The position numbers and the translations under genes are program-made. Below the pieces are notes generated by a model. It searched no databases, had not been told where the DNA came from, and saw only the letters and a program-made list of their open reading frames with translations. A stretch of DNA of 64,000 nucleotides from an uncultured Pseudomonadota bacterium (GTDB taxonomy: Bacteria > Pseudomonadota > Alphaproteobacteria > RF32 > CAG-239), in contig CASFJK010000003.1 of the NCBI GenBank assembly GCA_949295025.1, positions 34,858 through 98,857 on the forward strand, given 5' to 3'. Shown piece by piece: positions 5,379-55,895 of the stretch. Within the stretch, counting starts at the first letter, position 1, and each line of letters begins with the position of its first letter.

Positions 5379-5840
5379 ATGTCAACAAACAAAATTTTTA
5401 TTATGTGCGTGGCTTTTTCCATTGTACTTTCGGCTTGTTCCAATGATTTGTTTTTAACTCATAACGGTAATATGCCTTCTAATGAACGCATATCTCAGCT
5501 CAAAATTGGTGACACAAAAGAACAAGTGGTCAGAACCCTCGGGGCTCCATCTTCTGTTGTTTCTTTTGATAAAAACACATGGATTTATATGTCTTCTGCC
5601 ATCAAACGTGTGGCTTTTATGGAACCCAAAGAAGTTAGTCGCGATATTTTAACCATTGAATTTAACAACGAAGGAAAAATTTCTAACATTCAACGCTTAA
5701 GTAAAGCTGATGGAAAGGAAATTGCAGTCAGTACCGATGCTACAAAATCGCAAGGACATGAACCTGGTTTCTTTGAAAAATATTTTGGTGGCGTTGGAGG
5801 TTATTCTCCTTTCCCCGTGGTTGATCCAAGACAATTATAA
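5379..5840 (+). CDS. bamE: Outer membrane protein assembly factor BamE (SmpA/OmlA lipoprotein)
   Basis: A 153-aa lipoprotein. The signal peptide ends in lipobox LSAC with lipidated Cys20. The BamE domain follows, with ISQLKIGDTKEQVVRTLGAPS (about residues 39-59) and a second strand-helix unit to about residue 110. The last 40 residues are a Gly/Pro-rich tail without a recognised fold. BamE is a periplasm-facing subunit of the BAM complex that inserts beta-barrel proteins. Start ATG 5379 has SD AAGGA. Transcribed alone, ending at hairpin 5842-5872. Confidence 0.93.
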   Translation: MSTNKIFIMCVAFSIVLSACSNDLFLTHNGNMPSNERISQLKIGDTKEQVVRTLGAPSSVVSFDKNTWIYMSSAIKRVAFMEPKEVSRDILTIEFNNEGKISNIQRLSKADGKEIAVSTDATKSQGHEPGFFEKYFGGVGGYSPFPVVDPRQL

Positions 5841-5841
5841 T

Positions 5842-5872
5842 AAAAAAGGCTTCTTATCGGAGCCTTTTTTAT
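5842..5872. terminator. Bidirectional terminator between bamE and the TerB-like gene
   Basis: AAAAAAGGCT, 9-nt loop, AGCCTTTTTT between convergent genes. Confidence 0.85.
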
Positions 5873-5875
5873 TGC

Positions 5876-6547
5876 TTATAAACCAACATCTGGCTCAACT
5901 CCCTGCTCTCTTAAAATTTGCAAAATTTCGGCCAAATATATTTTCTCATTATAGGCTAAAAAGCCATCACCAATACAAATTTTAACAACGGCTTGCACCA
6001 GTTCTTCTGCTTCTTCCGGTGTTTTTTGACTCAAGTTTTCTACCGCCTGATAAAATTCTTCTGTGGTGGGTTGTAATGCTTTTAGACAACTTTCAACATA
6101 ATTTTTGCTTAAACTTTGCGGATGCGGATGATGCTGCTCGATATATTGCAAAATAGTTTTTTTCTTTATCTCTGAAAAATAATCAACACATTTGGCAATA
6201 TAGAGCAAAATGATGATATCATCTTTTAAGACTTTTAATAATTCTAAATTTACAGGCGCTTTTTTTACAGGCACATCTTCTACTTGCTCTGTTTGAGATT
6301 TAAACTCGTTATAATCGCGCAACAATACCGAACATGAAGTATACAGCTTTTCGGTATTTAAATTCATAATATCTTTAATGTAAGCCGAATCTATTACCTT
6401 GGAACTTTTATCTCGATAGAAATATAGATTGAGCATAATATTACCGCCATGGTCCCAAATGTTTTTTAAGGCCACATTTTCTTCACGCACATCATCTCCA
6501 TATTTGATGTGCGCTAAAAGATTATAGAACCTTATATTTTCTGACAT
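5876..6547 (-). CDS. Possible TerB-like domain protein cotranscribed with mfd
   Basis: A 223-aa soluble protein I cannot name. The N-terminal half (to about residue 95) has no family signature. The C-terminal 110 residues are helical and end with a VKICIGDGFLAYNEKIYLAEI-like segment, resembling the acidic helix pair of TerB-like (tellurite-resistance fold) domains. Its start codon directly follows the mfd stop with no gap, so it is translated from the mfd message. A role next to transcription-coupled repair is suggested by position only. Confidence 0.65.
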   Translation of the reverse strand: MSENIRFYNLLAHIKYGDDVREENVALKNIWDHGGNIMLNLYFYRDKSSKVIDSAYIKDIMNLNTEKLYTSCSVLLRDYNEFKSQTEQVEDVPVKKAPVNLELLKVLKDDIIILLYIAKCVDYFSEIKKKTILQYIEQHHPHPQSLSKNYVESCLKALQPTTEEFYQAVENLSQKTPEEAEELVQAVVKICIGDGFLAYNEKIYLAEILQILREQGVEPDVGL

Positions 6548-9500
6548 TTAGCCCTCAAGCAGTTGATTGAGTTTGTTTACATAATTTTTTATAGTTTCTA
6601 CGCGCAAGGCATAACTGTCAAGATTTTTCTCAATGAACAACTTTTGGTCTGGACGAATCTTAATAGCGCCGAACTGCCGGGCAACAAAATCTATCAATTT
6701 TTCCGGTTTGACAAAGGTATTGTTTCTCAAAGTAATCAAAATACCTTTAGCGCCGGCATCAATTTTTTCAATATTGGCTTTGCGGCAAAGTTGTTTTATC
6801 TCAACTGTTTTTAATAAGTTATCAACCTCTACAGGCAACGGTCCAAAGCGGTCAATCAATTCTTCTCTGATGTCATCCAAACCGGCTTTGTCTTCAATAT
6901 CACCAATGCGTTTATACAAGCCCAAACGAACGCCCAAATCTCTGACATAGGTTTCAGGAATCATAATCGGGATACCTGTAGTGATTTGCGGAGCCCAATC
7001 TGTAGTAATGGATGTTTCCTCTTTCTCGCCTTTTGTACCTTGAGTCTTGAGGCGCATTATTTCTTCTTCCAACATGTGTTGGTACAAAGCAATACCCACT
7101 TCTTTGATGTGTCCGGATTGCTCCTCACCCAAAATATTTCCCGAGCCACGAATATCCATATCATGGCTGGCTAAAGAGAAGCCTGCACCCAAAGAATCTA
7201 AGGCCTGCAAAATATTCAGTCTTCTTTCGGCAATCGGTTTCAATGCTTTTTGTTTGGGTACGGTAAAATAGCAATAGCCCCTCACCTTACCGCGACCGAC
7301 ACGTCCTTTGAGTTGGTACAATTGAGCCAAGCCAAACATATCTGCCCTATGAACAATCATAGTATTCACACTCGGCATATCAATACCTGACTCAATGATG
7401 GTGGTGGAAAGCAATAAATCTGCCTTTCCATCGGCAAAATCGTTCATCACGGTTTCTAGCTGTTTGACCGGCATTTGTCCGTGAGCGACTAAAATTTTGA
7501 CATCCGGCACCAATTCGCGCAATTCTTTTTCAACGCCAAAAATATCCGACACGCGCGGACAAACAAAGAAGGTTTGACCATGACGGAATTTTTCGCGATA
7601 GATGGCCTCTTTTATCATCACCTTATCAAAAGGCATGACGAATGTACGCGCGGCTAATCTATCTACCGGCGGGGTGGCAATCAAGCTCAACTGCTTAACT
7701 CCCGTCAAAGAAAGCTGTAAGGTTCTCGGAATCGGGGTTGCGGTCATGGTTAAAACGTGAACATCCGACTTAATGGACTTCAGTTTTTCTTTATGAGCCA
7801 CACCGAAATGTTGTTCCTCATCAATAATCAGCAAACCCAAATTGCAGAATTTGATATCTTTGGCGAGCAAAGCATGGGTTCCAATCACAATCTCAACCGA
7901 GCCCTCTTCCAAACCTTTTTTGGTTTCGGCGGCTTCTTTCGGGGTGACCAAACGCGAGAGCATTCTCACTCTTATCGGAAAACCTTCCATACGTTTTTTG
8001 AAGTTCATGTAGTGCTGACGAGCAAGCAAGGTTGTCGGTACTATCAAGGCCACTTGCGCACCACTCGCAGCAACGGCAAAGGCTGCTCTTAATGCCACCT
8101 CGGTTTTGCCGAAGCCGACATCACCGCAGACCAATCTATCCATCGGCACGGTGTCTGCCAAATCTTGCAAAACATCGCTTATGGCGTTTAACTGGTCATC
8201 GGTTTCGGAATATGGAAAACGAGAGCAAAATTCATCATACATGCCTTGCGGTGCAATAAAGCTATCGGCTTTTTTCAAATGACGTTCGGCGGCAATTTTA
8301 ATCAGTTTTTCAGCAATATCTTTAATGCGCTGTTTAACTTTAGCTTTCTTTGCCTGCCATGCCAAACCGCCCAATGTGTCTAGCTGAATATTATCATCAT
8401 CCAAACCATAGCGCGACAAAACATCAATGTTTTCAACCGGAACAAAAAGTTTGGCATCGTTAGCATATAAAATCTTCAAACAATCATGCGGAGCACCACC
8501 GGCGGTGATATTCTCCAGCCCCATAAATTTACCGATACCATGTTCGATATGAACAACCAATTCGCCAACGCTCAAGGAACCTACATCGGCAATAAAATCT
8601 TTACTAGATGCTTTTTTCTTGGTGGCACGATGCTGACGCTCACCCAAAACATCTTGCTCGGAAATAAAGCACAAACCATCGCCTCTAAAGCCATGCGGCA
8701 GATTCAAAACCACCAAGGCTGTGCGTTTATTTTCCGGATGATTGGCATCTTTCCAACTATCAGCAAAATATAAATTTTCAATGCTGTGCTCGTGCATCAA
8801 CGTAAATAATCTATCACGAGAACCTTCGGAATAGCAGCAAATTACACGGCGAAGTTTATTGTTTTCTTTAAGATATTCATCAAGTTCTTTATACACTTCC
8901 TGAAGGTTGACGTTTTTGGCTTGAGCAAAACTGCGTCCCGGTAACACTCCTGCATTGACCGTATTATCATTCTCTGCCAAGGTCATGGAGGTGAAATAAA
9001 CGGCTTCTTTTTTCTTGAAAATATCTGTGATTTCTTTTTCGGTCAGATACAATAACTCGGGCGCAATCGGGCGGTAAATATCCACCTCGTTGACCGACTT
9101 GACGTTCAAAGCCTCTAAACGCGCCTGATAATAATCAGCAATGCTTTCACATTTGGATTTAACTGCTTCTAAAACATTGCGACCGACAATCACTTGAGCT
9201 TGCGGCAAATAGGAAAAAATATCGGGCAGCGGTTCTTCATAGAAAAACGGCAGCCAGTTTTCCATACCCAGATGTTTAACTCCGTTACTAATGTCGGCGT
9301 AAATTTCATCATCTTTGAATGCGGCGCCAAAAGCCTCGCGATATTTGGTGCGGAAAGACTTGATGGTGTTTTCATCCAAAGTTACCTCGCCCATCACCTG
9401 AAAAGTATAATGGCTGAGTTCGCCCGTGGTGCGTTGGGTCATAGCATCAAAAGTGCGGATACGTTCAACCTCATCATCAAACATATCAATACGCAACGGC

Positions 9501-10030
9501 TCATCGGTACCAACTGGAAAGATATCGATAATATCACCCCTGACAGCATATTCTCCGGGTTCAATTACCTGTTCTACACGATTATAACCATTGATGGCAG
9601 CATAATGTACAAAGTCATTAAAACTCAACTTATTGCCGACTTTGACTTGTCTTATGGCATTTAAGAAAATTTTTTGCGGCGGTAATTTTTGCAAAACTGA
9701 GCCGACACTTGCCAATATCACACGTGATTTTTGGGGTTGCGGGTTGCTGACAATGGCGGTCAGCGTTTCTATTCTTTGGGCAACGATATTGATGTTGGGC
9801 GAAACTCTATCATACGGCACGGTATCCCATGACGGCAGGAGCAAAACCTCCAAATCGGGGTTGAGCCAGCGCAACATATCGGCGGTTTTCTCCATGGAAA
9901 TACCGTCGCTCAAAATATATAAAATATCTTGCTTTTTCTTTTGGCTGAATTTCTCTGCCAGTACGGCATCATATCCGTCCGGCACGGAGGAAATGATTTT
10001 GCCCTTTAACTTTTCAATATCGTCCAACAT
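6548..10030 (-). CDS. mfd: Transcription-repair coupling factor Mfd
   Basis: A 1160-aa protein of normal length. It removes RNA polymerase stalled at DNA damage and recruits UvrA. Order: UvrB-like N-terminal region; RNAP-interacting domain around residues 480-550 (VHIEHGIGKFMG); RecG-like translocase with Walker A GDVGFGKTE near residue 635, DEEQ box in IDEEQHFG, TATPIPRTL motif III and the GRVGRG motif; C-terminal TRCF domain to residue 1160. It is divergent from recG across about 84 nt. In many alphaproteobacteria a small sdhE gene lies between the two; it is absent here. Confidence 0.98.
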   Translation of the reverse strand: MLDDIEKLKGKIISSVPDGYDAVLAEKFSQKKKQDILYILSDGISMEKTADMLRWLNPDLEVLLLPSWDTVPYDRVSPNINIVAQRIETLTAIVSNPQPQKSRVILASVGSVLQKLPPQKIFLNAIRQVKVGNKLSFNDFVHYAAINGYNRVEQVIEPGEYAVRGDIIDIFPVGTDEPLRIDMFDDEVERIRTFDAMTQRTTGELSHYTFQVMGEVTLDENTIKSFRTKYREAFGAAFKDDEIYADISNGVKHLGMENWLPFFYEEPLPDIFSYLPQAQVIVGRNVLEAVKSKCESIADYYQARLEALNVKSVNEVDIYRPIAPELLYLTEKEITDIFKKKEAVYFTSMTLAENDNTVNAGVLPGRSFAQAKNVNLQEVYKELDEYLKENNKLRRVICCYSEGSRDRLFTLMHEHSIENLYFADSWKDANHPENKRTALVVLNLPHGFRGDGLCFISEQDVLGERQHRATKKKASSKDFIADVGSLSVGELVVHIEHGIGKFMGLENITAGGAPHDCLKILYANDAKLFVPVENIDVLSRYGLDDDNIQLDTLGGLAWQAKKAKVKQRIKDIAEKLIKIAAERHLKKADSFIAPQGMYDEFCSRFPYSETDDQLNAISDVLQDLADTVPMDRLVCGDVGFGKTEVALRAAFAVAASGAQVALIVPTTLLARQHYMNFKKRMEGFPIRVRMLSRLVTPKEAAETKKGLEEGSVEIVIGTHALLAKDIKFCNLGLLIIDEEQHFGVAHKEKLKSIKSDVHVLTMTATPIPRTLQLSLTGVKQLSLIATPPVDRLAARTFVMPFDKVMIKEAIYREKFRHGQTFFVCPRVSDIFGVEKELRELVPDVKILVAHGQMPVKQLETVMNDFADGKADLLLSTTIIESGIDMPSVNTMIVHRADMFGLAQLYQLKGRVGRGKVRGYCYFTVPKQKALKPIAERRLNILQALDSLGAGFSLASHDMDIRGSGNILGEEQSGHIKEVGIALYQHMLEEEIMRLKTQGTKGEKEETSITTDWAPQITTGIPIMIPETYVRDLGVRLGLYKRIGDIEDKAGLDDIREELIDRFGPLPVEVDNLLKTVEIKQLCRKANIEKIDAGAKGILITLRNNTFVKPEKLIDFVARQFGAIKIRPDQKLFIEKNLDSYALRVETIKNYVNKLNQLLEG

Positions 10031-44542: not shown

Positions 44543-46342
44543 TCATTTATCATCTAGACCTTTATTTAGAGATAATAGCATAGGAATAGCTGATTCTTGA
44601 AGTACTATAATCAAAATATCAGTATTATTTTCTTTAATGTTTTTTTCCCATCTAGAAATATTTAAGTTGGATTCTTTATATGTATTTGCTCTATATTTGA
44701 AGGATTTTTTGAAATTATATGGAAAAAACTGCATAAAATTTTCAATAAAAGAAGTTCCAACTACTACAGCTGTTAGATTAGCGCCATGAGGATAAGTATA
44801 TTCTTTAGTCTCCAGCCTATCATCTTTTAAGACGGTCAAAAGTTTTTCTTCCTTATGTTCATAATATTTATAGTTAGCGTCTAAATTGATATACTTATCA
44901 GGAAAGTTTAGATTACGTTTGGCTGTGCCCAAGCCAAAACCGCGCCCATGTTCAGCACGAACCTTGTTTGAATAAAATACATTAAAATCACTTTCTGGAA
45001 TGGCCTGTATCGCGGGAAATGTTTTTTGAATTTCTTTCATTAAAGCTTGATAAGCAATATAAGCCCCCCATTCTGTCCAATGATGGTCGGTTTTAAAAAA
45101 TACATAATCTTTTTGTTTTGCAGCCATACTTTCTGATAAAGGATAAATAATAGGAATGTCTACTTGTTTACTCAACTTTTGCAAAAACAATGTTGTATTG
45201 TTATAAAAGTGTTTCTTCCTTGGCGAAAATTCAGAATAAACATTGTCTTTAACAGGAGCAATTAGTATATAAGGTTTAATATTGTTTTTTGAACAAAACG
45301 TATATAACCAATTTAATTGTATTATATATTTTTGAATATATTCTGGTCGATTATCTAGCTCAATCATATTCATGCCAACGGTATATACAAATCCTTCCTT
45401 GCCTATATATGCTTTTGATGTTTCATAGTAAGTATTAATATTAAACAGAATATAAGTATGTAAGCTTGTTAGTAAATCTCTCGCATTAAACCTATCATTA
45501 AACCAAGCCTCAAAGTTTTTACCGTATTTGAGGTTGATATGACCTTGATTATCAATCAGCGGAACATATTTCGCCAACATCCGATTTTCTTGAACAGATT
45601 TTTCGTCTTGATTGATATGAGACATTGGTATCAACAACAAAGCAAAAAATACACTCAAAAAGACAATATCAATGCGGGAATGATGCTCTTTGATTTTGAA
45701 TTGGCTCAACCAATATACCAGTAAACGTGACAGCAAAAATGATATTGCAAAGCAACTGATGAATAACAAAGGTTCAATTCCGGAAATCAAATTAAGCGGA
45801 ATATACCGTTTGGCTTCAAACTCAATCTTTAACGAGTCACCATGTTTTAATGAAATGTCATATTTGTAACCTTTTTCATAACTCAACTTCTTTGTATCGA
45901 AAAATATCTCCTTACCATTAACTTTGAAGTTTTTATAATAAACCCAAACCGGATAAATTTTTCCATTATCCCATTTGTTATGAGGGCCAAGTAGATGGAT
46001 TGAAACTGTGCCGTTACCGATAGCTTTATATTGTAATTCGTATTTGCGGAATTGACGATATATTTTGGCTTGAACCATAGTACCGCGACCGGGGGTCTTC
46101 ATCCAAGATGGGTTATTATACCAATCAGGTTGCTCGCTTTTGACCCTTTTGCTCAAATCTACAACTTGCAACTGATTATCCTTATCTCCGCCAAAAAAGA
46201 TGTTTAAACGAACCTCTTTACTATTAAAAGCGCGAAAAAAATTATCCATATTAGCACCGGAATAAAGTGGTGAAATTAATAACATTATCACCAAAGTCAG
46301 TAATAAACTGATTATCAATCTTTTTTTGCGCTTAATCTGCAT
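44543..46342 (-). CDS. AlgJ/AlgX-like DHHW-family O-acetylation protein with an N-terminal glycan module
   Basis: A 599-aa protein. Membrane segment about 10-28; periplasmic module 43-178 shared with two other proteins of the locus; second membrane segment about 190-212; a third hydrophobic segment about 228-245; then an SGNH-like domain beginning NQDEKSVQENRMLA, with KTDHHWTEWGAY near residue 419 and a late VVVGTSF segment. DHHW/AlgJ proteins act with MBOAT partners to transfer acetyl groups to exported polysaccharide; the MBOAT gene lies 15 nt upstream. Confidence 0.82.
   Translation of the reverse strand: MQIKRKKRLIISLLLTLVIMLLISPLYSGANMDNFFRAFNSKEVRLNIFFGGDKDNQLQVVDLSKRVKSEQPDWYNNPSWMKTPGRGTMVQAKIYRQFRKYELQYKAIGNGTVSIHLLGPHNKWDNGKIYPVWVYYKNFKVNGKEIFFDTKKLSYEKGYKYDISLKHGDSLKIEFEAKRYIPLNLISGIEPLLFISCFAISFLLSRLLVYWLSQFKIKEHHSRIDIVFLSVFFALLLIPMSHINQDEKSVQENRMLAKYVPLIDNQGHINLKYGKNFEAWFNDRFNARDLLTSLHTYILFNINTYYETSKAYIGKEGFVYTVGMNMIELDNRPEYIQKYIIQLNWLYTFCSKNNIKPYILIAPVKDNVYSEFSPRKKHFYNNTTLFLQKLSKQVDIPIIYPLSESMAAKQKDYVFFKTDHHWTEWGAYIAYQALMKEIQKTFPAIQAIPESDFNVFYSNKVRAEHGRGFGLGTAKRNLNFPDKYINLDANYKYYEHKEEKLLTVLKDDRLETKEYTYPHGANLTAVVVGTSFIENFMQFFPYNFKKSFKYRANTYKESNLNISRWEKNIKENNTDILIIVLQESAIPMLLSLNKGLDDK
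45809..46216 (-). other. Shared extracytoplasmic module, copy A (DHHW protein residues 43-178)
   Basis: Landmarks shared with copies B and C: VRLNIFF, PDWYNNPSWM, IGNGTVSIHLLG, PVWVYYKNFKVNG and KHGDSLKIEF. It looks like an all-beta accessory or carbohydrate-binding domain placed outside the cytoplasm. Confidence 0.6.
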
Positions 46343-46357
46343 GAATATTTCCTCAGT

Positions 46358-47758
46358 CTAAAATCTAAAATAGATAAATGGATTGTAGGTTGAAGCTGCC
46401 ACCGTGGCTGATGATAAGATAAACAGTATAATCAACCAGATATTAACCAGACTACGCCAGACCTTATGCTCGTATTTGATATCTAATATTTTCTTAAATA
46501 TCGGCATTGAACATATAATACCGGCAACAATAGCCATAATCTCGATATTATCAATATAATAAGCATATTCATAAGCAATTTTATGTTCACTTATCAATCC
46601 AAACATATTTTGGAGATAGTCTCCGGCATAGCTCAAATTCGGAGCTCGGAAAATTACCCACCCAATAACAAAGGCAAAAATGGTATAAACATGTTGAGCT
46701 AAATTTAATTTCCAGTCTTTTTTCTCTTTATGCCAGCCGGTGGCTTTTTCTAAAATAATGAAAAATCCATGCCATAGCCCCCAAACCACGAAAGTCCACT
46801 CGGCTCCATGCCAAATACCGGTAGCCAAGAAAACTACAAACAAGTTGAAATACATTCGGCTCCGAGCAACTCGATTGCCTCCGAGCGGTATATATAAATA
46901 TTCCTTAAACCAGGTGGAGAGCGAAATGTGCCATCTTCTCCAGAACTCGGTAATTGATTTGGAAATATAGGGATAATTAAAGTTTTCCATAAAGCGGAAT
47001 CCAAATATCAGGCCCAAACCAATCGCCATATCGGAATAACCACTAAAGTCATAAAACAGTTGCAGACTATAACAAATGGCACCAAGCCAGGCTGTCCAAG
47101 CATCAAACTGCTCAACCGGTTGAGCAAATATTTTATCAGCAACCGCACCTAAGGTATTGGCAATCAACATCTTTTTAGATAAGCCGATAATAAACCGCTT
47201 TACACCTAAAGCAACTTTGTCAAAGGTCACGCTTCGTTTGTCAATCTGCTCGGCAACATCGTGATATTTAACAATCGGACCGGCGACCAACTGCGGAAAA
47301 AGTGTAATATATAAAGACAATTTATAAATATCTTTTTGTACCGGACAATCTTTGCGGTAAACGTCAATCAAATAGGACATGGCCTGAAAAGTATAAAAGG
47401 AAATTCCTATCGGCATAATAACGTCAATAAACTTGACATCCATGGCAAACAAAGCATTAGCATTATCAATAATAAAATTAAAATATTTGAAATAAACTAA
47501 AAAGGCCAAGTCAATGACAATGGTAGAAGTTAAAATCAGCTTAGCTTTAGAACGATACTTACTGAGTAATATAGCTCCATAATAATTGACCAAGATGGTG
47601 ATTATCATAATTGCCAGATATCTCGGTTCTCCCCAAGCATAAAAAATAATGCTGGCAATAAGCAAAAGATAGTTTTTAAGCTCTTGTTTAATCAGCAGAT
47701 AGCTGATGCAAACAATCGGCATAAATACATATATAAAAGTCATACTTGAGAATAACAT
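46358..47758 (-). CDS. MBOAT-family O-acyltransferase (AlgI-like)
   Basis: A 466-aa polytopic membrane protein with about 10-12 hydrophobic segments. The signature FWRRWHISLSTWFKEYLYIPLGG (positions about 272-294) and catalytic His in ATGIWHGAEWTF near residue 319 are clear. AlgI-type proteins pass acetyl groups across the inner membrane to AlgJ/X-type partners, here the 44543-46342 product. Length is normal. Confidence 0.95.
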   Translation of the reverse strand: MLFSSMTFIYVFMPIVCISYLLIKQELKNYLLLIASIIFYAWGEPRYLAIMIITILVNYYGAILLSKYRSKAKLILTSTIVIDLAFLVYFKYFNFIIDNANALFAMDVKFIDVIMPIGISFYTFQAMSYLIDVYRKDCPVQKDIYKLSLYITLFPQLVAGPIVKYHDVAEQIDKRSVTFDKVALGVKRFIIGLSKKMLIANTLGAVADKIFAQPVEQFDAWTAWLGAICYSLQLFYDFSGYSDMAIGLGLIFGFRFMENFNYPYISKSITEFWRRWHISLSTWFKEYLYIPLGGNRVARSRMYFNLFVVFLATGIWHGAEWTFVVWGLWHGFFIILEKATGWHKEKKDWKLNLAQHVYTIFAFVIGWVIFRAPNLSYAGDYLQNMFGLISEHKIAYEYAYYIDNIEIMAIVAGIICSMPIFKKILDIKYEHKVWRSLVNIWLIILFILSSATVAASTYNPFIYFRF

Positions 47759-47770
47759 TTTCTTAGTCCT

Positions 47771-48688
47771 TTAAATTACCAACAATCCGTCCATAATTAT
47801 CGAGCTAATATCCTTCACGGCAACAAAATCATCTTTTAGTTGAATAGTATTAGGATGGGTATTGGTGCAATATATTCGTTCAATCAACCCGCAATCTTTC
47901 ATTTTATCCAATGCACCGGGAACAAAAACACCGTGCGTGGTCAAGACATATATTTTATCGGCTCCTGCTTCTTTATAAGCTTTGGCTGCATTGATAATTG
48001 AACTACCAGATCGTATCATATCATCATAAATGGCAACATTGCGCCCTTTAACATTGGCACTCAGGGCGATGACGCGAGTTTGGCTACCGGACACTCGTTC
48101 TTTCATCAGATAGGCACTTTCCAAATTGAGCCTTTGGCTCATCTTTTCAATCCACTTGGCACGCCCCATATCAGTCGAGGCCAATATAATATCTTCTCCG
48201 AACCCGCTGATAATCTCTTTCATAATCGGCTCTGATGTCAAGTGAATAGTATGAACAGAGCCTTCGAAATAATATTGCACACCTAGAGAGTGTAAATCAA
48301 TCAGATAAATGAAATTACCCTGCGCCGACAATGGAATTGTGCTCAACATACGGGCAATGTTTTTAGCCGGCACAACCTCGCCACTCTTGGTGGCTCGTTC
48401 CATAGTGGAATAGCCAAAATATGGAATCACCAAGTGTAAAGAAGAACATTGCTCACTGACCAACTCACAAGCTAAATTGTAGGTTTCCATAATTGCAGCA
48501 TCATTTATCGTACCGGAAATTAATACAGCTGGCTGATTACGCACAGTTTCGGGCTTGACAATTCGATGATATACCTCACCATCAGGAAACTTCAGTGTTT
48601 CAATTTCTCCTTTCTGAAACTGCTTGTTCTTTTCCAATATCGAATCTTGGAGATATCTATATATTTCGGTTGCAAATAAATTAACCAT
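47771..48688 (-). CDS. Ribose-phosphate pyrophosphokinase-like protein
   Basis: A 305-aa PRPP-synthetase family protein. It has FPDGEVYHRI (34-43), PYFGYSTMERATKSGEV (89-105), DLHSLGVQYYF with Asp131-His133, the flexible-loop KERVSGSQTR, and the PRPP loop YDDMIRSGSS (221-230). These motifs favour an active enzyme making PRPP from ribose-5-phosphate and ATP. Located with a UbiA-type phosphoribosyltransferase homologue, it probably supplies PRPP for a polyprenyl-phosphate sugar, not general metabolism. Overlaps the SDR gene by 8 nt. Confidence 0.85.
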   Translation of the reverse strand: MVNLFATEIYRYLQDSILEKNKQFQKGEIETLKFPDGEVYHRIVKPETVRNQPAVLISGTINDAAIMETYNLACELVSEQCSSLHLVIPYFGYSTMERATKSGEVVPAKNIARMLSTIPLSAQGNFIYLIDLHSLGVQYYFEGSVHTIHLTSEPIMKEIISGFGEDIILASTDMGRAKWIEKMSQRLNLESAYLMKERVSGSQTRVIALSANVKGRNVAIYDDMIRSGSSIINAAKAYKEAGADKIYVLTTHGVFVPGALDKMKDCGLIERIYCTNTHPNTIQLKDDFVAVKDISSIIMDGLLVI

Positions 48689-49643
48689 GTTGCTTCTTAA
48701 TCCTTTGATATTCTTCGAATGCGGCTTGCATCATATCAGAATCACTATATTGCGGTATCCAGCCTAATTCATCTTTTGTCAGAGAAATGTCTATTAGATA
48801 ATTTTCATCAGCAATCATATATTGCTCTTTGTACATGATTTCCAAACCGATTTTCCCTAAGCAGGCTAACGTAAATTTTACCAACCGGCCCCAGGTCGGA
48901 ATCAAAACTGAATGGGATTTATTTTTATGAATAACATCTCGCAAAAGTTCTCGAACTTGCGGTGGATTATTTGATCCTAAATTATATTCTCGATTAGGAA
49001 CTCCATGTGAAACGGCTTTGATAATGGCCGAAGCACAATCATTAACCGAAACCATTTGATAGCAATTTTTGCCATTACCAATCATCGGAACCGGTAAATT
49101 CAGTTCAATCAATTTAAAGAGTTTGGTTAATATACCGAGACGACCTTTGCCGATAATCATACGCGGGCGAAAGATGGCAATATTCATGCCCATATCCCGA
49201 TATTGGCGACAAACCGACTCGGCTTTTTTCTTACTAATGCCGTAATAACCAAAGGGATTTTGCGGATGTTTTGTGTCAACCGGAAGATATTGCGGTTTCC
49301 CGTAGACCATATCTGTACTGAAAAAAACCATCCGTTTGGCACCGTCTTGTTGCATTTTGCGGAGTAAATTCTCGGTACCATGCAAATTGACGCTCTCAAA
49401 AAACTCTTGTCTTCCTTTTCTTGGAACGCGATGATGATACTGATTTGCCGCCAGTTGAATAACCACATCATCCGGTTTGAAAACAAAACTAATGGGTTGG
49501 GTTATATCTTGATATTCATAAGCTGTAGAAATATGCGGCGGTACAATATCTAAAACAACAATATCGTTTTCTCCTTGAGTTTGCAATTGTCGAACCAACT
49601 CTTGTCCGACAAAACCAGCGCCACCAACAATAACATATCTCAT
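48681..49643 (-). CDS. NAD-dependent epimerase/dehydratase (extended SDR)
   Basis: A 320-aa SDR. Rossmann motif VGGAGFVGQELV (6-17), catalytic FFSTDMVYGKP with Ser/Thr and YYGISKKKAES supplying Tyr-Lys (about 143-147), and PRMIIGKGR. Substrate unknown. Between the PRPP synthetase and SMR-type genes it may epimerise or reduce a pentose or nucleotide sugar; DprE1/DprE2 oxidoreductases for decaprenyl-phosphate arabinose are not present. Overlaps both neighbours (8 and 4 nt). Confidence 0.85.
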   Translation of the reverse strand: MRYVIVGGAGFVGQELVRQLQTQGENDIVVLDIVPPHISTAYEYQDITQPISFVFKPDDVVIQLAANQYHHRVPRKGRQEFFESVNLHGTENLLRKMQQDGAKRMVFFSTDMVYGKPQYLPVDTKHPQNPFGYYGISKKKAESVCRQYRDMGMNIAIFRPRMIIGKGRLGILTKLFKLIELNLPVPMIGNGKNCYQMVSVNDCASAIIKAVSHGVPNREYNLGSNNPPQVRELLRDVIHKNKSHSVLIPTWGRLVKFTLACLGKIGLEIMYKEQYMIADENYLIDISLTKDELGWIPQYSDSDMMQAAFEEYQRIKKQHG

Positions 49644-50020
49644 TTTACAAAATCCTTACTATAGGTTAAGACCACAACACCAAGGCAAATAATTACAATG
49701 CCCAATATTTTTTGAGCTGTTAAAGGCTCCTTAAATATTAGATATGCCAAAATGGCCGTAACGACATATCCGACACTAAGAAAAGGATAGGCCAGTGATA
49801 CATTAACTTTAGACAAGACAATCATCCACAAAATGATGCTGATGCCATAACTAAACATACCCGAAAGAAGGTAGATATTAGTAAAAACAGACAATGCCAT
49901 GTGCCAAATTTGCTCCATATTCAGCGAAATATTGCCAAGTTTGAGCATCCCTTGACGAATGAATATTTGAGCTAAAGCATTGAGAAACACACTAGATAAA
50001 ATAAGTGGAATATGTTGCAA
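49640..50020 (-). CDS. SMR/EamA-type four-span membrane protein (possible lipid-linked sugar flippase)
   Basis: A 126-aa protein with four membrane segments. The first begins IPLILSSVFLNALAQIFIRQG and the last ends ILGIVIICLGVVVLTY, like ArnE/EmrE proteins. I take TTG 50020 as start: TAGGAG precedes it by 7 nt, and it lies 10 nt after the UbiA stop. A longer frame from 50047 would begin inside the UbiA gene. Such small proteins flip undecaprenyl-phosphate aminosugars in other bacteria. Transport of a polyprenyl-phosphate pentose is inferred from neighbours. Confidence 0.75.
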   Translation of the reverse strand: MQHIPLILSSVFLNALAQIFIRQGMLKLGNISLNMEQIWHMALSVFTNIYLLSGMFSYGISIILWMIVLSKVNVSLAYPFLSVGYVVTAILAYLIFKEPLTAQKILGIVIICLGVVVLTYSKDFVK

Positions 50021-50030
50021 GTTTTTTCTC

Positions 50031-50900
50031 CTATAAAATTTCGGCAAAAATAGCTAATACATACAATACATACAGTATGCAAACTCCTATTAAGCCTTTA
50101 TCTTTATATAAGCCGTCGGTAGGATCTTCGATACTCTCATCTTTATCCAAAATATAGACATAGCGGAACATCCCATAGATTACAAAAATCACACTATAGA
50201 TAAGTCTGTTTGTAGAAAAACGGGCAATCGTTGAGGGCTCAAGAGTGTAAAGGGCATAGCACATTATGGTCAAGGTTGCAGAGATGATAATATATTGGTC
50301 TATAACTTTAAGCGGATATTGCTCCAAAACGGCCCTTCCATCACTTCCACGACGCATTAATTCTCCTTTACGCTTTGTAAAACCCAAGAAGAGCGATAGA
50401 AACAAAGTGGCCATGAAAATAAAACTAGATACGGGAACATCAATGGCATAAGCACCGGCATACACGCGCAAAATGAAGCCAAAGGCAATTATCAGCACAT
50501 CAATCAAGACCATCTGTTTGAGTTTATAGGAATATAAAATATTTATGACAACATAAATACCTATAACTAAAGCCGTTTTGATATTTCCTAATAACAATAA
50601 ACAAACAAAAACTAAAGCCAGCAAAACAACCTCGATTACACCACCAGCCCAAGGACTAATTCGACCACTGGCAATCGGGCGATTTTTCTTTTTAGGGTGC
50701 AGAGCATCTTTCTTGCGGTCTAAGATGTCGTTCATGACATACACAACCGAAGATACAAAACAAAAAGCGGCAAAAGCCAAGCCGGCCTTGATTATTGAAT
50801 CTGTCTCTGTAAATTTCAGAGAGAACAGCAACGGAGCCAAAACAAAAGCGTTTTTAACCCATTGCTTAACGCGGATAAGTTTGACAATATCTTTTATCAT
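50031..50900 (-). CDS. UbiA-family prenyltransferase, decaprenyl-phosphate phosphoribosyltransferase-like
   Basis: A 289-aa polytopic enzyme with the RVKQWVKNAFVLAPLLFS start (10-27) and Asp-rich VYVMNDILDRKKDALHPKKK (53-72, Asn57-Asp58), followed by RPIASG. That wording is closer to decaprenyl-phosphate 5-phosphoribosyltransferase (mycobacterial UbiA) than to ubiquinone UbiA. Such enzymes join PRPP to polyprenyl phosphate. Flanked by a PgpA-like phosphatase (1-nt overlap) and, further on, a PRPP synthetase, which fits the same reaction. Confidence 0.85.
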   Translation of the reverse strand: MIKDIVKLIRVKQWVKNAFVLAPLLFSLKFTETDSIIKAGLAFAAFCFVSSVVYVMNDILDRKKDALHPKKKNRPIASGRISPWAGGVIEVVLLALVFVCLLLLGNIKTALVIGIYVVINILYSYKLKQMVLIDVLIIAFGFILRVYAGAYAIDVPVSSFIFMATLFLSLFLGFTKRKGELMRRGSDGRAVLEQYPLKVIDQYIIISATLTIMCYALYTLEPSTIARFSTNRLIYSVIFVIYGMFRYVYILDKDESIEDPTDGLYKDKGLIGVCILYVLYVLAIFAEIL

Positions 50901-51382
50901 TAAAGTATCTCCACGAAGTTGCTGATAGCATATAAAACAATTGCGGCATAAATTCCGGCAAATACGTCATCTAGCATGACACCCCAAGCATTAAGCACCT
51001 TTTGGTCAGCCCAACGTGCAGGTTGAGGTTTCCAAATATCAAACAGGCGGAACAGAAAAAAGCCGATGATATAAGTCGACCAAGCGTTCAAATTCTCTAC
51101 TAATTGGTTGGCCACAAGCGTAAATGTCAACAGCTGCCCGACAACTTCATCGATAATGATAATTGATGGGTCATGTTTGGTATATTTCAACACTTCTTTA
51201 GAGGCGATAACTCCAATAACAAAGCTAAATAGTGCCAAAGCTAATATACCCCAAATTCCATAGAAATAGGCAGCGGCAAAAGCAAATGGTAAAGTGGCAA
51301 ACGAGCCGGCTGTGCCTGATGCAAAAGGAAAATATCCGACACCAAAACCACTAACAGCCGTATAACAAAGAAATTTATACAT
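50900..51382 (-). CDS. pgpA: PgpA-family phosphatase (phosphatidylglycerophosphatase A)
   Basis: A 160-aa membrane phosphatase with all PgpA landmarks: GTAGSFATLP (about 24-33), IIIIDEVVGQLLT (about 74-86), FRLFDIWKPQPARWAD (about 111-126) and VMLDDVFAGIYA. In lipid metabolism it dephosphorylates phosphatidylglycerophosphate. In this locus, directly before the UbiA homologue, it might instead or additionally remove the 5-phosphate from polyprenyl-phospho-phosphoribose, the step done by a different phosphatase in mycobacteria. Confidence 0.88.
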   Translation of the reverse strand: MYKFLCYTAVSGFGVGYFPFASGTAGSFATLPFAFAAAYFYGIWGILALALFSFVIGVIASKEVLKYTKHDPSIIIIDEVVGQLLTFTLVANQLVENLNAWSTYIIGFFLFRLFDIWKPQPARWADQKVLNAWGVMLDDVFAGIYAAIVLYAISNFVEIL

Positions 51383-53234
51383 GTTTTGCTCCTTTAGAAA
51401 ATAATTTCAGTTTTATCTGTTTTAACTCTGTTTTGTCAGATTTCAGAAAACTGATGGTGGATTCAACCGTGAGTATAATCAGCATAAGATGTGCAGAAAT
51501 TGCCCTGAGCACCTCGTTATTTAATATTTTCAAAGGATTTAATATGGCAACAAACAAAAACAAATACGCCAGATTTAACTTGGTCAGTTTGGCTTGATTG
51601 AGAAACATCACAATGCAAACAAATAAGTACAAACCAAAATATGGATATGAACGATTGTTCACAATGGTTAAAATTACCAATACCAGCTGGGTAATACGTT
51701 TCCATTCGTTTTTCTGAAAATAGTTGGTTGCAAAAATCAATATAAATAAAATACCATTTAACCCAAGGATAAATTTATCTACTAAAAGGGCATAATCGGC
51801 TCCAATCAAGCTGGTTAAATCACCTCTCAAAACACCATCAAAACCGGCATTGGCATATATCAAGTAGCGAAAACTAAAATAATTCCACATACCCGTATTA
51901 TATTTACTAATGTTTTCTATAATTAAAGGAACATTAGCCAAACCACCCTTAAAAAACAAAAACGGTAAGAAAACAAAAGCTAAACCATATAACACCAAGC
52001 GCAAAGTTTCTTTGAAATTACCACGATACAAAGTCAAAAGACCAAACACACAAGGATATAATTTCAGACCAGAGGCAATGCCAAGCGAAATTAATGCAAA
52101 CTCTCTAACTCTGGCATTCTCATTATCGTAATTTAGCAGATACACCGTAGTGAGAGCTACAGATAAAATCATCGGATTACCTGTGCTAATAGCATTGCTA
52201 AAAGGTAGGCTGAATATTAAAATAAACATTAAAGCATATTTATATGGCTTATCTGTTTTGTATTTATCAAATAAAGACAACAATAAAAATGTGGCCATTG
52301 CAAAAATAAACAAATGTGCCTTAGCATAATTTCCGGTTTGATGGAAAGCATCAAAAGAATTTTTGCTTACATAATCTCCGGTTTGCCCAAACAAATAATA
52401 TAAAATATTCAGCAAAGGAGGATTTTGCACACCTCGGCTGTAACTATCGAGACCAAGAGCCTTGGTAATCGGTTCGAAGAAATCGCAAAAATATGTATGG
52501 TTTCCATATCCTGAAGAAAAATAGCCATTTTCATTGACCAGTAAGAACCACAAATACAGTAAAGAAATTGGCAACATAATACCGATAAATACCTTATTTA
52601 TATCCCATTTTATTTCTGTGATATTTTTATATCCATACCAAAATCCGCTAAACAGCAATGCAAATAGAATAATATCTGTGATAATAAAGCGATAAAAGCC
52701 ATTAATTTGTGAAAGCGGAGCTTTTTTATGTTTGACTACAATATCAATCTTTTCACCATTTTGCACATCTAAAGTAATACTATAAGATTTATCGTGGCTC
52801 ACAACAATGGGCAAATCAGATATAGGTTGGCCATTTATCAACACCTCTTCATAGTTTATCCAGACAGGGATTCTTTTATTAGCTTTTTTGTAATCTGTCC
52901 CCATAAGTTTAAGGATAAGTTTTCCTTTACCTTCAGACGTAAGTTGAAAAGTTGCGATGCGATTATGACTAGCTGTTTTAAGGATTATACTTGCTCCTGT
53001 CCCACTATTTTTTATCCAAGAAATCGACTTCATCCATTCAGGATATAATATTTGAACTCTTTTATCTTCAGTATTAACCTTTACAGAATTTTTGACATTC
53101 CCTTGAGTATAAATATCTATCCGGGCTCTGTTATTATCAAAATTGGCCTTAAGCTCAATAGGCATTATAAACGGATTAATAATCCATAAAATTACTAAAG
53201 CAGCTAGCGCAGAAAACAGATACTTTTTAGTCAT
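51375..53234 (-). CDS. GT-C-type membrane glycosyltransferase (GT87-like) with an N-terminal periplasmic module
   Basis: A 619-aa protein: membrane segment about 6-24; module about 36-170 (copy B); then about 10 membrane segments with loops such as FEPITKALGLDSYSRGVQNP. The layout (polyprenyl-sugar-using multi-span enzyme, lipid-linked donor) resembles GT87/DUF2029 mannosyl- or arabinosyl-transferases. Start ATG 53234 follows AAGGA by 7 nt. Fits a transferase using the polyprenyl-phosphate sugar made by the neighbouring UbiA block. Overlaps pgpA by 8 nt. Confidence 0.75.
   Translation of the reverse strand: MTKKYLFSALAALVILWIINPFIMPIELKANFDNNRARIDIYTQGNVKNSVKVNTEDKRVQILYPEWMKSISWIKNSGTGASIILKTASHNRIATFQLTSEGKGKLILKLMGTDYKKANKRIPVWINYEEVLINGQPISDLPIVVSHDKSYSITLDVQNGEKIDIVVKHKKAPLSQINGFYRFIITDIILFALLFSGFWYGYKNITEIKWDINKVFIGIMLPISLLYLWFLLVNENGYFSSGYGNHTYFCDFFEPITKALGLDSYSRGVQNPPLLNILYYLFGQTGDYVSKNSFDAFHQTGNYAKAHLFIFAMATFLLLSLFDKYKTDKPYKYALMFILIFSLPFSNAISTGNPMILSVALTTVYLLNYDNENARVREFALISLGIASGLKLYPCVFGLLTLYRGNFKETLRLVLYGLAFVFLPFLFFKGGLANVPLIIENISKYNTGMWNYFSFRYLIYANAGFDGVLRGDLTSLIGADYALLVDKFILGLNGILFILIFATNYFQKNEWKRITQLVLVILTIVNNRSYPYFGLYLFVCIVMFLNQAKLTKLNLAYLFLFVAILNPLKILNNEVLRAISAHLMLIILTVESTISFLKSDKTELKQIKLKLFSKGAKHV
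52725..53129 (-). other. Shared extracytoplasmic module, copy B (GT-C protein residues 36-170)
   Basis: Landmarks: RARIDIYTQGN, YPEWMKSISWIKN, EGKGKLILKLMG, RIPVWINYEEVLINGQ, HDKSYSITLDVQNG. It aligns end to end with copies A (45809-46216) and C (53260-53700). Confidence 0.65.
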
Positions 53235-53244
53235 AACGAATTCC

Positions 53245-54810
53245 TTATCTTGTGAGTTGAGCAATTAATTCCTTTATTGATGGAATATGACGGCGATATT
53301 TTAGTTTTAGATTACAATATTCTCCGTCTTTTACCGAAATAGAATATTTTAATGGCTTATCATGCCAAGCAACAGCTTGTGATGATTGAATTGTCTTGTT
53401 GTTAATTTGAACATCTTTATAATCAAAAAGTATGGGTTTGTTATGCCCTCCTTTATTAATCTGCACCCCGCGAAGCCAAATATCTAAGTTTCCGGAGCCA
53501 ATGCATCGAAAAGAAAAATTAATTTTTTTATAAAAGAACGAGGTTATCAAATCTAAAACAAAACCATTTCCAACTTTAGTAATCCACTTAGGATTTTGAT
53601 ACCAGTTGGGAGCAGAAAAGATAATCTTTTTATCATAGGAAAGCTGTATAATGTTATTTTCAGCAGAACCGGTAAAAATTAAATCAATACGCGCATTTTT
53701 GCTTACCACATTGCATATTGAAATAAGTGGAATGAATTTGAACAAAAAGTATTTAGTTTTATTTCTATGTTGCTCAACATCAAGCAAGGGGATATATTTA
53801 AACAAATGGTAACAATATCTTTTTAACTTTTTATAAACTGAAAGTAACGGTATTTTTCCAATGCTATATACTCGTATCGGAAGAGATTTCATATATTTTG
53901 TAGATATTATATTCCCATAGCCACGAGCAAAATTTGGATAATTTAATTTTAGTGTTCGATGCAATATTTTCGGATCAAAAATATTGAATTTTTTATTCTT
54001 TTTTTCAATCTTCTCAAATAGTTTGTTTAGTCTGATGATATAGTCTTTAATTTCTACTTCGCTTTTTCCCGATAACGGATTATATTTTCTTTGCAGCAAA
54101 TCTAAGTCTGAATCTGCTAGTTTTATATGGAGATTTTCTCTTAAAAACTTCTGCAATAATTTAACGTGATATGTTGTTAAAATATCTGTTTTCTGCGTTG
54201 TAATGCTACCTTCATAAGTGCGATGCCGACATAAATTCTCTTGCAAATTGGCAAAACGAACTTTGTTATATATACTTAACCATAACTCATAATCCTCTTG
54301 AGGTGAGCCTTCAGGATATTGGATATTATTCTTAATAAAATCAGATTTGCGAAATATTAAAGTAGAATGGCATAAATCACAGTTAAACAGTAATTCAGCT
54401 TTGCATTCTTCATGTGTTCCTTTGGCTTTATGCACAAAATTCCATCTACCAAAATGCTCTTGCCAGGTGCCTAAAATTGTAATTTCAGGGTGTTTATCAA
54501 GATATGTAACTTGCTTTTCAAATCTGGTAGGTAAGGAAATATCGTCAGCATCCATTCGAGCAATATATTTACCTTTAGCCACTTTAATTCCATAGTTCAA
54601 GGCAGTAGCCAAACCTTTTTGAGGGCCTTTAATCAGCTTAATTCTCTTATCTTTATAAGATTTTACGATGTTGCACGTGTTATCTTTCGAGTTATCGTCA
54701 ATCACCAATAATTCAAAATCTTGATAAGTTTGGTCTAAAATGCTGTCAATCGCTTCTTTCAAAAATTTTTCAGCATTATAAGTCGGCATAACAACCGAAA
54801 CCGTTGGCAT
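53245..54810 (-). CDS. Family 2 glycosyltransferase with FIPLL repeats and a C-terminal glycan module
   Basis: A 521-aa protein. GT2 domain 1-220 (SVVMPTYNAEKFLKEAID, VIDDNSKDNT, RMDADDISLPTRFEKQ). Middle basic helical region. Three tandem units near 325-370 (KIPLLSVYKK, HLFKYIPLLDVE, FLFKFIPLISI). C-terminal module (copy C). ATG 54810 follows AAGGAG and overlaps the GT8 stop by 1 nt. The GT2 part is a near-paralogue of 43398-44477, which lacks the module. Confidence 0.9.
   Translation of the reverse strand: MPTVSVVMPTYNAEKFLKEAIDSILDQTYQDFELLVIDDNSKDNTCNIVKSYKDKRIKLIKGPQKGLATALNYGIKVAKGKYIARMDADDISLPTRFEKQVTYLDKHPEITILGTWQEHFGRWNFVHKAKGTHEECKAELLFNCDLCHSTLIFRKSDFIKNNIQYPEGSPQEDYELWLSIYNKVRFANLQENLCRHRTYEGSITTQKTDILTTYHVKLLQKFLRENLHIKLADSDLDLLQRKYNPLSGKSEVEIKDYIIRLNKLFEKIEKKNKKFNIFDPKILHRTLKLNYPNFARGYGNIISTKYMKSLPIRVYSIGKIPLLSVYKKLKRYCYHLFKYIPLLDVEQHRNKTKYFLFKFIPLISICNVVSKNARIDLIFTGSAENNIIQLSYDKKIIFSAPNWYQNPKWITKVGNGFVLDLITSFFYKKINFSFRCIGSGNLDIWLRGVQINKGGHNKPILFDYKDVQINNKTIQSSQAVAWHDKPLKYSISVKDGEYCNLKLKYRRHIPSIKELIAQLTR
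53260..53700 (-). other. Shared extracytoplasmic-type module, copy C (C-terminus of the GT2)
   Basis: Landmarks: ARIDLIFTGSAENN, APNWYQNPKWITK, IGSGNLDIWLRG, ILFDYKDVQINN, HDKPLKYSISVKDG. Best match to copy B. No signal peptide or membrane anchor is visible on this protein, so here the module may be cytoplasmic or peripheral. Confidence 0.65.
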
Positions 54811-55895
54811 TACAATTCTCCTTTGATTTTGCATTTTAGAAACGGCAATACTGCAAATAGTTTGTAATAAATTTTATTTTTATGCACTTTCTTTTCTAAA
54901 ATTGGTATGAAGTTGAACAACAAATATGTCGTTTTTTGATCATAATATTCAACTTTGAGCAAAGGAATAAAAGAAAACAGCAATAATTTTGATACTTTGT
55001 TTGGTTTTGCCAAAATAGTTTTATCTCTATTTTGTATGATCATTTTTTTCAATTCTTTATAAAAAGGCGTCATCTTGGCATATTTCCACCACTCATTGCC
55101 ATATAATATGCTTTTATCATGCCATGGTTTAATTTTATCGGCAAAATGGAATATTGTAGGATCTTTTCTGGCCTCATTAATTTCATCTTGGCTGAATGTT
55201 TTTCTTAACTCCTCATCAGAATATTTTGAACAATTTATTGTAAAGTTGTTCTTTAGAGGCAAATGTTTTATATGTCCATAACACGCAACATTTAAAATAT
55301 CTTGGTCTTGACTCTTGAATTTTTTATCCGTTAACTGTAAAAATTCTGAGGTTATATTGTCCTTACGTATTGCATCTAAATTCATTAATACGACACCGGC
55401 TTGAATATAGCCCTTTAATGATGGTATTCCTAAGTCTTTCCCATACCATGCATTTTCAGGAAATGTGTACCACCCAGCTTTTGCTCCGGCTAAATAGTAG
55501 CCCTCCATATCTGTAGAATATAAGTTCCACAAATCATGCCGAACTAAAATATCTATATCTAAGTATATGCATTTTGATATTTGTGGTAGCGCTTCAGCTA
55601 TCAATAATCTGTAATATGTAGCATAAATGATGCGTTCATGCATTTTTGGAGCATTAATAAATGCATCTTTCATATTTATAAAAATTACTTTGCAATCGTT
55701 ATATTGACGTTCTAATGTACCAATTTTCTGTTTACTGGTGTCTGAAAAATTGTCAGGAACCAAAATATAGAATTCATAATTTGTTGTTTTTAATTTATTT
55801 TTAAGCATGGAAACCATGGTGACATACATGCAGTATATCAATTCATCATCGATTGTTGCAAAGACTATCGGTATCGTATGTTGTACTTTGGGCAT
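54810..55895 (-). CDS. Family 8 glycosyltransferase with C-terminal FIPLL repeats
   Basis: A 361-aa GT8 enzyme. IPIVFATIDDELIYCMYVTM start, CIYLDIDILVRHDL metal motif (about 115-128), and a GYIQAGVVLMNLDAIRK acceptor segment, as in LgtC/RfaI-type galactosyl/glucosyl transferases. The last 60 residues are three tandem units (LLLFSFIPLLKVE, YLLFNFIPILEKK, YYKLFAVLPFLKCK). Confidence 0.9.
   Translation of the reverse strand: MPKVQHTIPIVFATIDDELIYCMYVTMVSMLKNKLKTTNYEFYILVPDNFSDTSKQKIGTLERQYNDCKVIFINMKDAFINAPKMHERIIYATYYRLLIAEALPQISKCIYLDIDILVRHDLWNLYSTDMEGYYLAGAKAGWYTFPENAWYGKDLGIPSLKGYIQAGVVLMNLDAIRKDNITSEFLQLTDKKFKSQDQDILNVACYGHIKHLPLKNNFTINCSKYSDEELRKTFSQDEINEARKDPTIFHFADKIKPWHDKSILYGNEWWKYAKMTPFYKELKKMIIQNRDKTILAKPNKVSKLLLFSFIPLLKVEYYDQKTTYLLFNFIPILEKKVHKNKIYYKLFAVLPFLKCKIKGEL

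Follow-up and report, generated by a model that had tools for sequence, protein, structure and literature searches.

A stretch of 64,000 nucleotides (the window) from an uncultured alphaproteobacterium of the RF32/CAG-239 lineage (GenBank assembly GCA_949295025.1, contig CASFJK010000003.1, positions 34,858 to 98,857 of the forward strand) carries a compact block of six genes within a glycan locus. Along the minus strand (53234-47771), the block runs from a GT-C glycosyltransferase candidate through PgpA, UbiA, a small membrane transporter (SMR) and a short-chain dehydrogenase/reductase (SDR) to a ribose-phosphate diphosphokinase (Prs). All six genes are intact and score above the curated cut-offs of their Pfam families; they follow one another at intervals of -8, -1, 10, -4 and -8 bases, in the content and order given by the original prediction, overlapping or at most 10 bases apart. 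MBOAT and then AlgX-like genes follow downstream. The source genome is a 1.68-Mb draft of 43 contigs, with a listed completeness of 100%, from a family of 153 genomes that we call f1. We consider it quite probable from sequence that the block encodes a three-component system for adding a pentofuranose, equipped with an unusual phosphatase.

51375..53234, minus strand: GT-C glycosyltransferase candidate, 619 amino acids (Pfam GT87, 32.8 bits; cut-off 25)
50900..51382, minus strand: PgpA-family phosphatase (Pfam PgpA, PF04608, 131.9 bits; cut-off 28)
50031..50900, minus strand: UbiA-superfamily polyprenyl-phosphate phosphoribosyltransferase, PPPRS (NF008977; Pfam UbiA, 101.3 bits)
49640..50020, minus strand: ArnF/ArnE-like SMR, putative flippase (Pfam EamA, 40.8 bits)
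48681..49643, minus strand: extended SDR, putative lipid-linked pentose epimerase (Pfam Epimerase, 114.9 bits)
47771..48688, minus strand: diverged Prs, proposed local source of phosphoribosyl pyrophosphate, PRPP (TIGR01251; Pfam Pribosyltran_N, 53.9 bits)

The UbiA enzyme and its PgpA partner

The UbiA protein is, by family, structure matches and phylogeny, a PPPRS of the kind that makes decaprenylphosphoryl-5-phosphoribose (DPPR). It scored 247 bits against the NF008977 equivalog for decaprenyl-phosphate phosphoribosyltransferase (cut-off 234) and only 38 bits against the 4-hydroxybenzoate model TIGR01474 (cut-off 275.45), which true members in our tree outgroup match at 283 and 309 bits; none of the other 20 NCBIfam models listed reached its cut-off. 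Its sole relatives in the PDB at E<=0.01 were 8j8j and 8j8k, the mycobacterial DPPR enzyme. Counting by hand from alignments, we found 8 of the 10 PRPP-site residues that the consulted part of PMC10994848 gives for Rv3806c (R22, K28, N73, D77, K87, R90, Y138 and K143); Q135 is replaced by Asn, as in the aligned Pseudomonas and Vibrio enzymes, and K208 by Ala. In a tree of 44 rows picked by similarity (leaving out the long-branch L071, a distant UbiA of genome G022, and L043), 34 PPPRS-type rows stood apart from 10 other UbiA-superfamily rows (branch value 98), four of which NCBIfam names as two 4-hydroxybenzoate enzymes and two heme O synthases. The 11 rows from blocks like this one formed a single clade (branch value 100). 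A grouping with 4-hydroxybenzoate enzymes, which the original prediction had named as the result that would count against its DPPR-synthase-like assignment, did not appear, and these scores, PDB relatives and tree placement together reject a quinone enzyme.

The pathway class is described for Citrobacter youngae O1/O2 by Kelly et al. (2024, PMC11127046; statements from this paper refer to the part of it consulted here), where a PPPRS with a fused HAD phosphatase acts with an SDR, an ArnE/EmrE-like transporter and a GT-C that bears a domain for carbohydrate binding. The window has the same three components by sequence: a UbiA-type PPPRS that retains NDxxDxxxD and RxxE, an ArnE/EmrE-like transporter and a GT-C. 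NDxxDxxxD was tested by mutation in the Citrobacter enzyme, and the residues tested there are the same here. The two systems are further alike in a beta-rich domain added to the GT-C and in an optional SDR that sets the pentofuranose, the SDRs being likened by description rather than by sequence. They differ in the phosphatase (PgpA rather than a fused HAD domain), in the Prs gene within the operon, in the GT-C (GT87-type here, GtrII-type in relatives of the block) and in the acyltransferase gene that some of those relatives carry instead of an SDR. The transporter itself scored above cut-off for EamA, barely so for Multi_Drug_Res, and 65.3 bits against NF002816 (ArnF), under the equivalog cut-off of 99; its start is probably the TTG at 50020 behind AGGAG, an alternative at 50047 being less likely.

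Close relatives of this UbiA (at least 66% identity) occur in 5 of the 153 f1 genomes (G000, which is the window's, G025, G084, G088 and G127), and PgpA is adjacent in each; three further f1 genomes have distant UbiAs. The same adjacency recurs in 12 copies across seven Akkermansia genomes, which is more than chance would give. Among 76 Akkermansia genomes, PgpA and PPPRS were each found in seven, and these are the same seven; every one of the 12 PgpA genes has PPPRS as a neighbor on its contig, while a 13th piece of UbiA, in G183, begins at the edge of a contig and has no PgpA beside it. The naive chance of so exact an overlap is 5e-10 if genomes are treated as independent. The PgpA copies of these modules form one group in the PgpA tree and retain the motifs of Escherichia coli PgpA, and the window's scored 95.7 bits against the phosphatidylglycerophosphatase equivalog NF008288 (cut-off 226). 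Additional PgpA genes lie elsewhere in G000, G025 and G127.

Other families occupy the phosphatase position in comparable sets. A human fecal contig (L170) reads UbiA, HAD, SMR, SDR and DUF6044 protein, with an SMR 45% and an SDR 55% identical to the window's; a Lactococcus plasmid has UbiA, HAD and GtrA; a Marivivens plasmid has UbiA and PAP2; and pentofuranose systems with phosphatase families other than HAD are also on record (PMC11127046). A Pfam scan of ten proteins from the window's locus matched neither HAD nor PAP2 at E<=0.01, and hence not the HAD-type PRP domain, which is part of the Citrobacter prototype without being defining. PgpA thus appears to fill a slot held elsewhere by other phosphatases, and co-inheritance with PPPRS, together with intact motifs, lends good support to the role of replacement phosphatase proposed for it in the original prediction. 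No paper linking PgpA to a polyprenyl-phosphate-ribose pathway was found among the matches listed in open-licence PMC, and a word search of the main text of PMC11127046 did not find PgpA, Akkermansia or PRPP synth-.

Several points weigh against this reading. The RxxE motif counts as weak evidence, because R366A and E369A mutants of the Citrobacter enzyme stayed active (PMC11127046). The GT-C call rests on one modest Pfam match (GT87). The Akkermansia genomes are related, most are drafts, and their completeness is not stated; a few events may account for the co-occurrence. In G084 and G088, no PgpA was found besides the module copy, which may therefore act on phosphatidylglycerophosphate there, and in G025 the genes Prs, PgpA and UbiA stand together with neither SMR nor SDR beside them.

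Phage carriage of the module was considered and rejected, as scans of viral_contigs, which reach close relatives only, gave no relative of UbiA or PgpA. The fecal contig L170 is MT837543.1, an entry in a phage collection whose record is marked unverified, and it bears the HAD-type set. MT836925.1, in the same collection, has a PgpA (64% identity) about 420 bases from the contig end with no UbiA match beside it.

The Prs gene and the supply of PRPP

The Prs protein scored 182.4 bits against TIGR01251 (cut-off 113), the sole match above cut-off in the genome, and its alignment retains DLH, KxR and DDM, which we take to be the telling Prs motifs. Canonical PRPP synthetases were not found among the 153 f1 genomes: at E<=1e-20, 21 gave a match, always at 201 bits or less, and the other 132 gave none, whereas 21 of 24 genomes outside f1 have canonical Prs at 326-394 bits. 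The f1 proteins form one diverged clade with the motifs retained (19 f1 rows of 21). The original prediction had seen an unusual, dedicated PRPP synthetase here. As the only Prs found in its genome it is no extra copy, and we reject that idea.

It may instead serve purine salvage for the whole cell, its position in the block being incidental, an explanation that in our estimate has a substantial, if somewhat less than even, chance of being right. The genome has three further Pribosyltran matches (adenine and xanthine phosphoribosyltransferases above their cut-offs and a ComF-like protein below) alongside the sole Prs found. Of 19 f1 Prs genes inspected, 17 are not beside a module UbiA, and in the two remaining Prs genomes (G098 and G144) UbiA was not matched; G055 and G168 each hold a distant UbiA, on a contig other than that of Prs. 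At 1e-20, no Prs match was found in module-bearing G084, G088 and G127, nor in G002, which has a HAD-type PPPRS. With three module genomes lacking a match, Prs is not a fixed part of the module and is helpful at most. Against an incidental position stands the fact that a PgpA-type module and a Prs coexist in just two genomes, G000 and G025, and that both have Prs inside the module, in differing gene orders; a rough chance for two such neighbors is about 3e-5 (assuming 1500 genes and 8 slots).

Judged by eye, f1 Prs genes often lie near glycosyltransferases. A genome of the same genus (G004) has a glycan locus, L065, whose heptose-type genes are 82-96% identical and which includes a diverged Prs and no UbiA.

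The SDR and the identity of the pentose

Counting the window, we found 17 module loci, and they differ in the gene at the tail. Seven have an SDR (the window, L075, L076, L077, L078, L081 and L085), six an acyltransferase (L079, L080, L082, L083, L084 and L118, the last matched in two pieces), one (L087) neither, and three (L086, L114 and L115) are truncated ahead of the tail gene and do not enter the comparison. L075, L076, L077 and L087 are contigs of G084, G127, G088 and G025, each counted once. Pfam Acyl_transf_3 passes its cut-off for the L080 acyltransferase but not for that of L079. SDR and acyltransferase never occur together as module genes (0 of 17 loci), and two bins, Lapin-003-2 bin78 and Lapin-032 bin68, hold one locus of each kind apiece. 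The module thus occurs in Akkermansia as well as in gut Alphaproteobacteria, its tail gene alternating between SDR and acyltransferase, and is a conserved, mobile variant of a known pathway.

Module SDRs retain GGxGxxG and YG.SK. UbiA and/or SMR genes are found close to SDR homologues of 27-55% identity on the fecal contig, in Neorhizobium, in Streptomyces, in L116 and on two rhizobial plasmids (plasmid matches came to 17 records, of which five neighborhoods were inspected). Since most homologues seen have such neighbors, the SDR is tied to PPPRS pathways in most of these cases; an Azospirillum homologue (46%), within 5 kb of which neither UbiA nor SMR was matched, counts the other way. One of the plasmid neighborhoods, L237 (pNGR234a 299625-307690), has a HAD-UbiA fusion, SDR, SMR and a GMC oxidoreductase a few kilobases from nodS/nodU on a rhizobial symbiosis plasmid.

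As the original prediction had held, the arabinose enzyme DprE1 appears to be missing: it was not found in any of the five module-bearing alphaproteobacterial genomes (DprE2 had no search), with controls that matched in the query's own genome and in a Vibrio (57%). The seven Akkermansia genomes gave weak partial matches only, at 29-31% identity. Arabinose made by way of DprE1 is rejected for the five Alphaproteobacteria on this ground, which also makes arabinose the less likely product. In the Citrobacter system, the SDR converts ribofuranose to xylofuranose, its C3 epimer, and the arabinofuranose (Araf) systems listed there carried DprE1/DprE2 homologues (PMC11127046). With DprE1 not found and an SDR of epimerase type present, arabinose is a less likely product than ribofuranose or one of its epimers, for instance xylofuranose. 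The lipid-linked ribose of the original prediction stands in outline, its arabinose is less likely, and a lipid-linked ribose pathway in an alphaproteobacterium is not new as such, its class having been published in 2024 (PMC11127046).

Two other assignments of the SDR seem unlikely to us, to about the same degree. One is that it replaces DprE1 and DprE2 and makes lipid-linked arabinofuranose in a one-enzyme C2 epimerization. An extended SDR with bound NAD could both oxidize and reduce by itself, and the Neorhizobium homologue (48%) lies near a HAD-UbiA fusion with an FAD_binding_4 protein resembling DprE1 in between; the xylofuranose product of the characterized SDR system, the DprE1/E2 of the listed Araf systems and the DprE1 result in the five Alphaproteobacteria speak against it. 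The other is that the substrate of the SDR is a nucleotide sugar belonging to the same glycan, plain ribofuranose being what is added. Here 60 of the 81 PDB matches listed for the SDR are named as nucleotide-sugar enzymes, it is absent from 7 of the 14 module loci whose tail could be read, and the Azospirillum homologue fits as well. Against this, the module SDR directly follows the SMR gene, and the neighborhoods described above place its relatives near UbiA and/or SMR.

Two further known systems can be compared. The mycobacterial decaprenyl-phosphate-arabinose pathway (Rv3806c, Rv3807c, DprE1/E2) has the same PPPRS reaction and a largely matching active site; here no DprE1 was found, the block has no PAP2 match, and the transporter is nearest ArnF. 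Gram-negative sets of UbiA, DprE1, DprE2, GtrA and PAP2 (Pseudomonas indica L089, Vibrio L090 and others) have the same type of PPPRS with different phosphatase, flippase and epimerase genes and are probably the arabinose version; their genes were judged by eye from sequence starts, with DprE1 found by search in two and the remaining names being what we take those genes to be.

Flanking genes and the proposed pathway

The block is flanked by the following genes.

53245..54834, minus strand: GT2 glycosyltransferase with a C-terminal beta-domain at 53724-53248 (Pfam Glycos_transf_2, 136.6 bits)
46358..47758, minus strand: MBOAT O-acyltransferase, next operon gene after a 12-base gap (Pfam MBOAT, 108.1 bits)
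44543..46342, minus strand: AlgX-like SGNH protein with a beta-domain at 46255-45758 (Pfam ALGX, 54.2 bits)

GT2 and GT8 genes also occur in the locus by Pfam, and further genes are probably of heptose type. The position before PgpA is variable. Glucos_trans_II (GtrII) proteins fill it in L075, L079, L118 and L078 (for L078, which has two, 757 amino acids of the more upstream one were scanned), the GT-Cs of L076 and L087 have no confident Pfam family, and the window's is GT87. In L078, an Akkermansia module (5686-9514), two GtrII-type GT-C matches follow one another. The GT87 match and the GtrII proteins of relatives agree with the idea, put forward in the original prediction, that the upstream enzyme would use a lipid-linked sugar. 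The arrangement resembles O-antigen glucosylation by GtrA/GtrB/GtrC, which likewise combines a loader, a flippase and a variable GT-C, although the lipid donor is built from UDP-glucose there and would be built from PRPP here (PMC11127046).

A domain of about 145 residues without a Pfam match is common to the window's GT-C (53162-52680), GT2 (53724-53248) and AlgX-like protein (46255-45758), all on the minus strand, and to GT-Cs, GT2s and one AlgX-like protein of Akkermansia module loci. It was modeled as a beta-sandwich (pLDDT 88, compared with 40 for a single-sequence fold of the whole GT-C) and has no clear relative in the PDB. Its function may be to bind the glycan that these proteins share, in the manner of the carbohydrate-binding domain on the GT-C from Citrobacter. 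The same domain is seen in other, often large, open frames across f1.

The gene content and order, the homologies and the co-inheritance are observed; the reactions, which we infer from them, would run as follows. Prs would make PRPP, from which UbiA, to judge by its family, active site and tree position, would transfer phosphoribose to polyprenyl phosphate, giving polyprenyl-phosphate-ribofuranose-5-phosphate. PgpA, on the strength of its co-inheritance and motifs, would remove the 5-phosphate at the membrane. The SDR would then act on the ribofuranose carried by the lipid and epimerize it, in all likelihood to xylofuranose, as in Citrobacter, arabinofuranose being less likely. The SMR protein would flip the lipid, and the GT-C would add the pentofuranose outside the membrane. 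The acceptor would be the glycan that the neighboring glycosyltransferase genes produce, and MBOAT and AlgX may also O-acetylate it.

At the phosphatase step, it is improbable, more so than either alternative for the SDR, that PgpA is an ordinary phosphatidylglycerophosphatase that travels with the block while another enzyme dephosphorylates the lipid-linked ribose phosphate: its E. coli-like motifs and its standing as the only PgpA found in G084 and G088 would allow this, but 69 of the 76 Akkermansia genomes have no PgpA match, all 12 copies in the other seven adjoin PPPRS, the module copies group together, three of the five Alphaproteobacteria have a further PgpA, and no HAD or PAP2 candidate was seen among the ten locus proteins.

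With PgpA taken as the 5-phosphatase, we can sketch, tentatively and as less likely than not, how the system arose. A gut lineage may have lost standard PRPP synthesis and kept or regained a diverged Prs in a surface-sugar operon, where it feeds a lipid-linked pentose pathway. The 5-phosphatase would have been recruited from phospholipid synthesis, and the PgpA-PPPRS cassette would have passed between Alphaproteobacteria of the gut and Akkermansia, a genus in which we found PgpA only in this cassette; SDR and acyltransferase would have been swapped to change the sugar displayed.

PgpA thereby becomes a third candidate family for the polyprenyl-phosphate-ribose phosphatase step, beside HAD and PAP2, and Akkermansia strains in which PgpA was found only in the module offer a clean test case. 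The distribution of Prs raises the question of where PRPP comes from in cells without a detectable PRPP synthetase. Finally, the module makes pentofuranose decoration predictable in gut Alphaproteobacteria and some Akkermansia, and such decoration could bear on recognition by the host or by phages.

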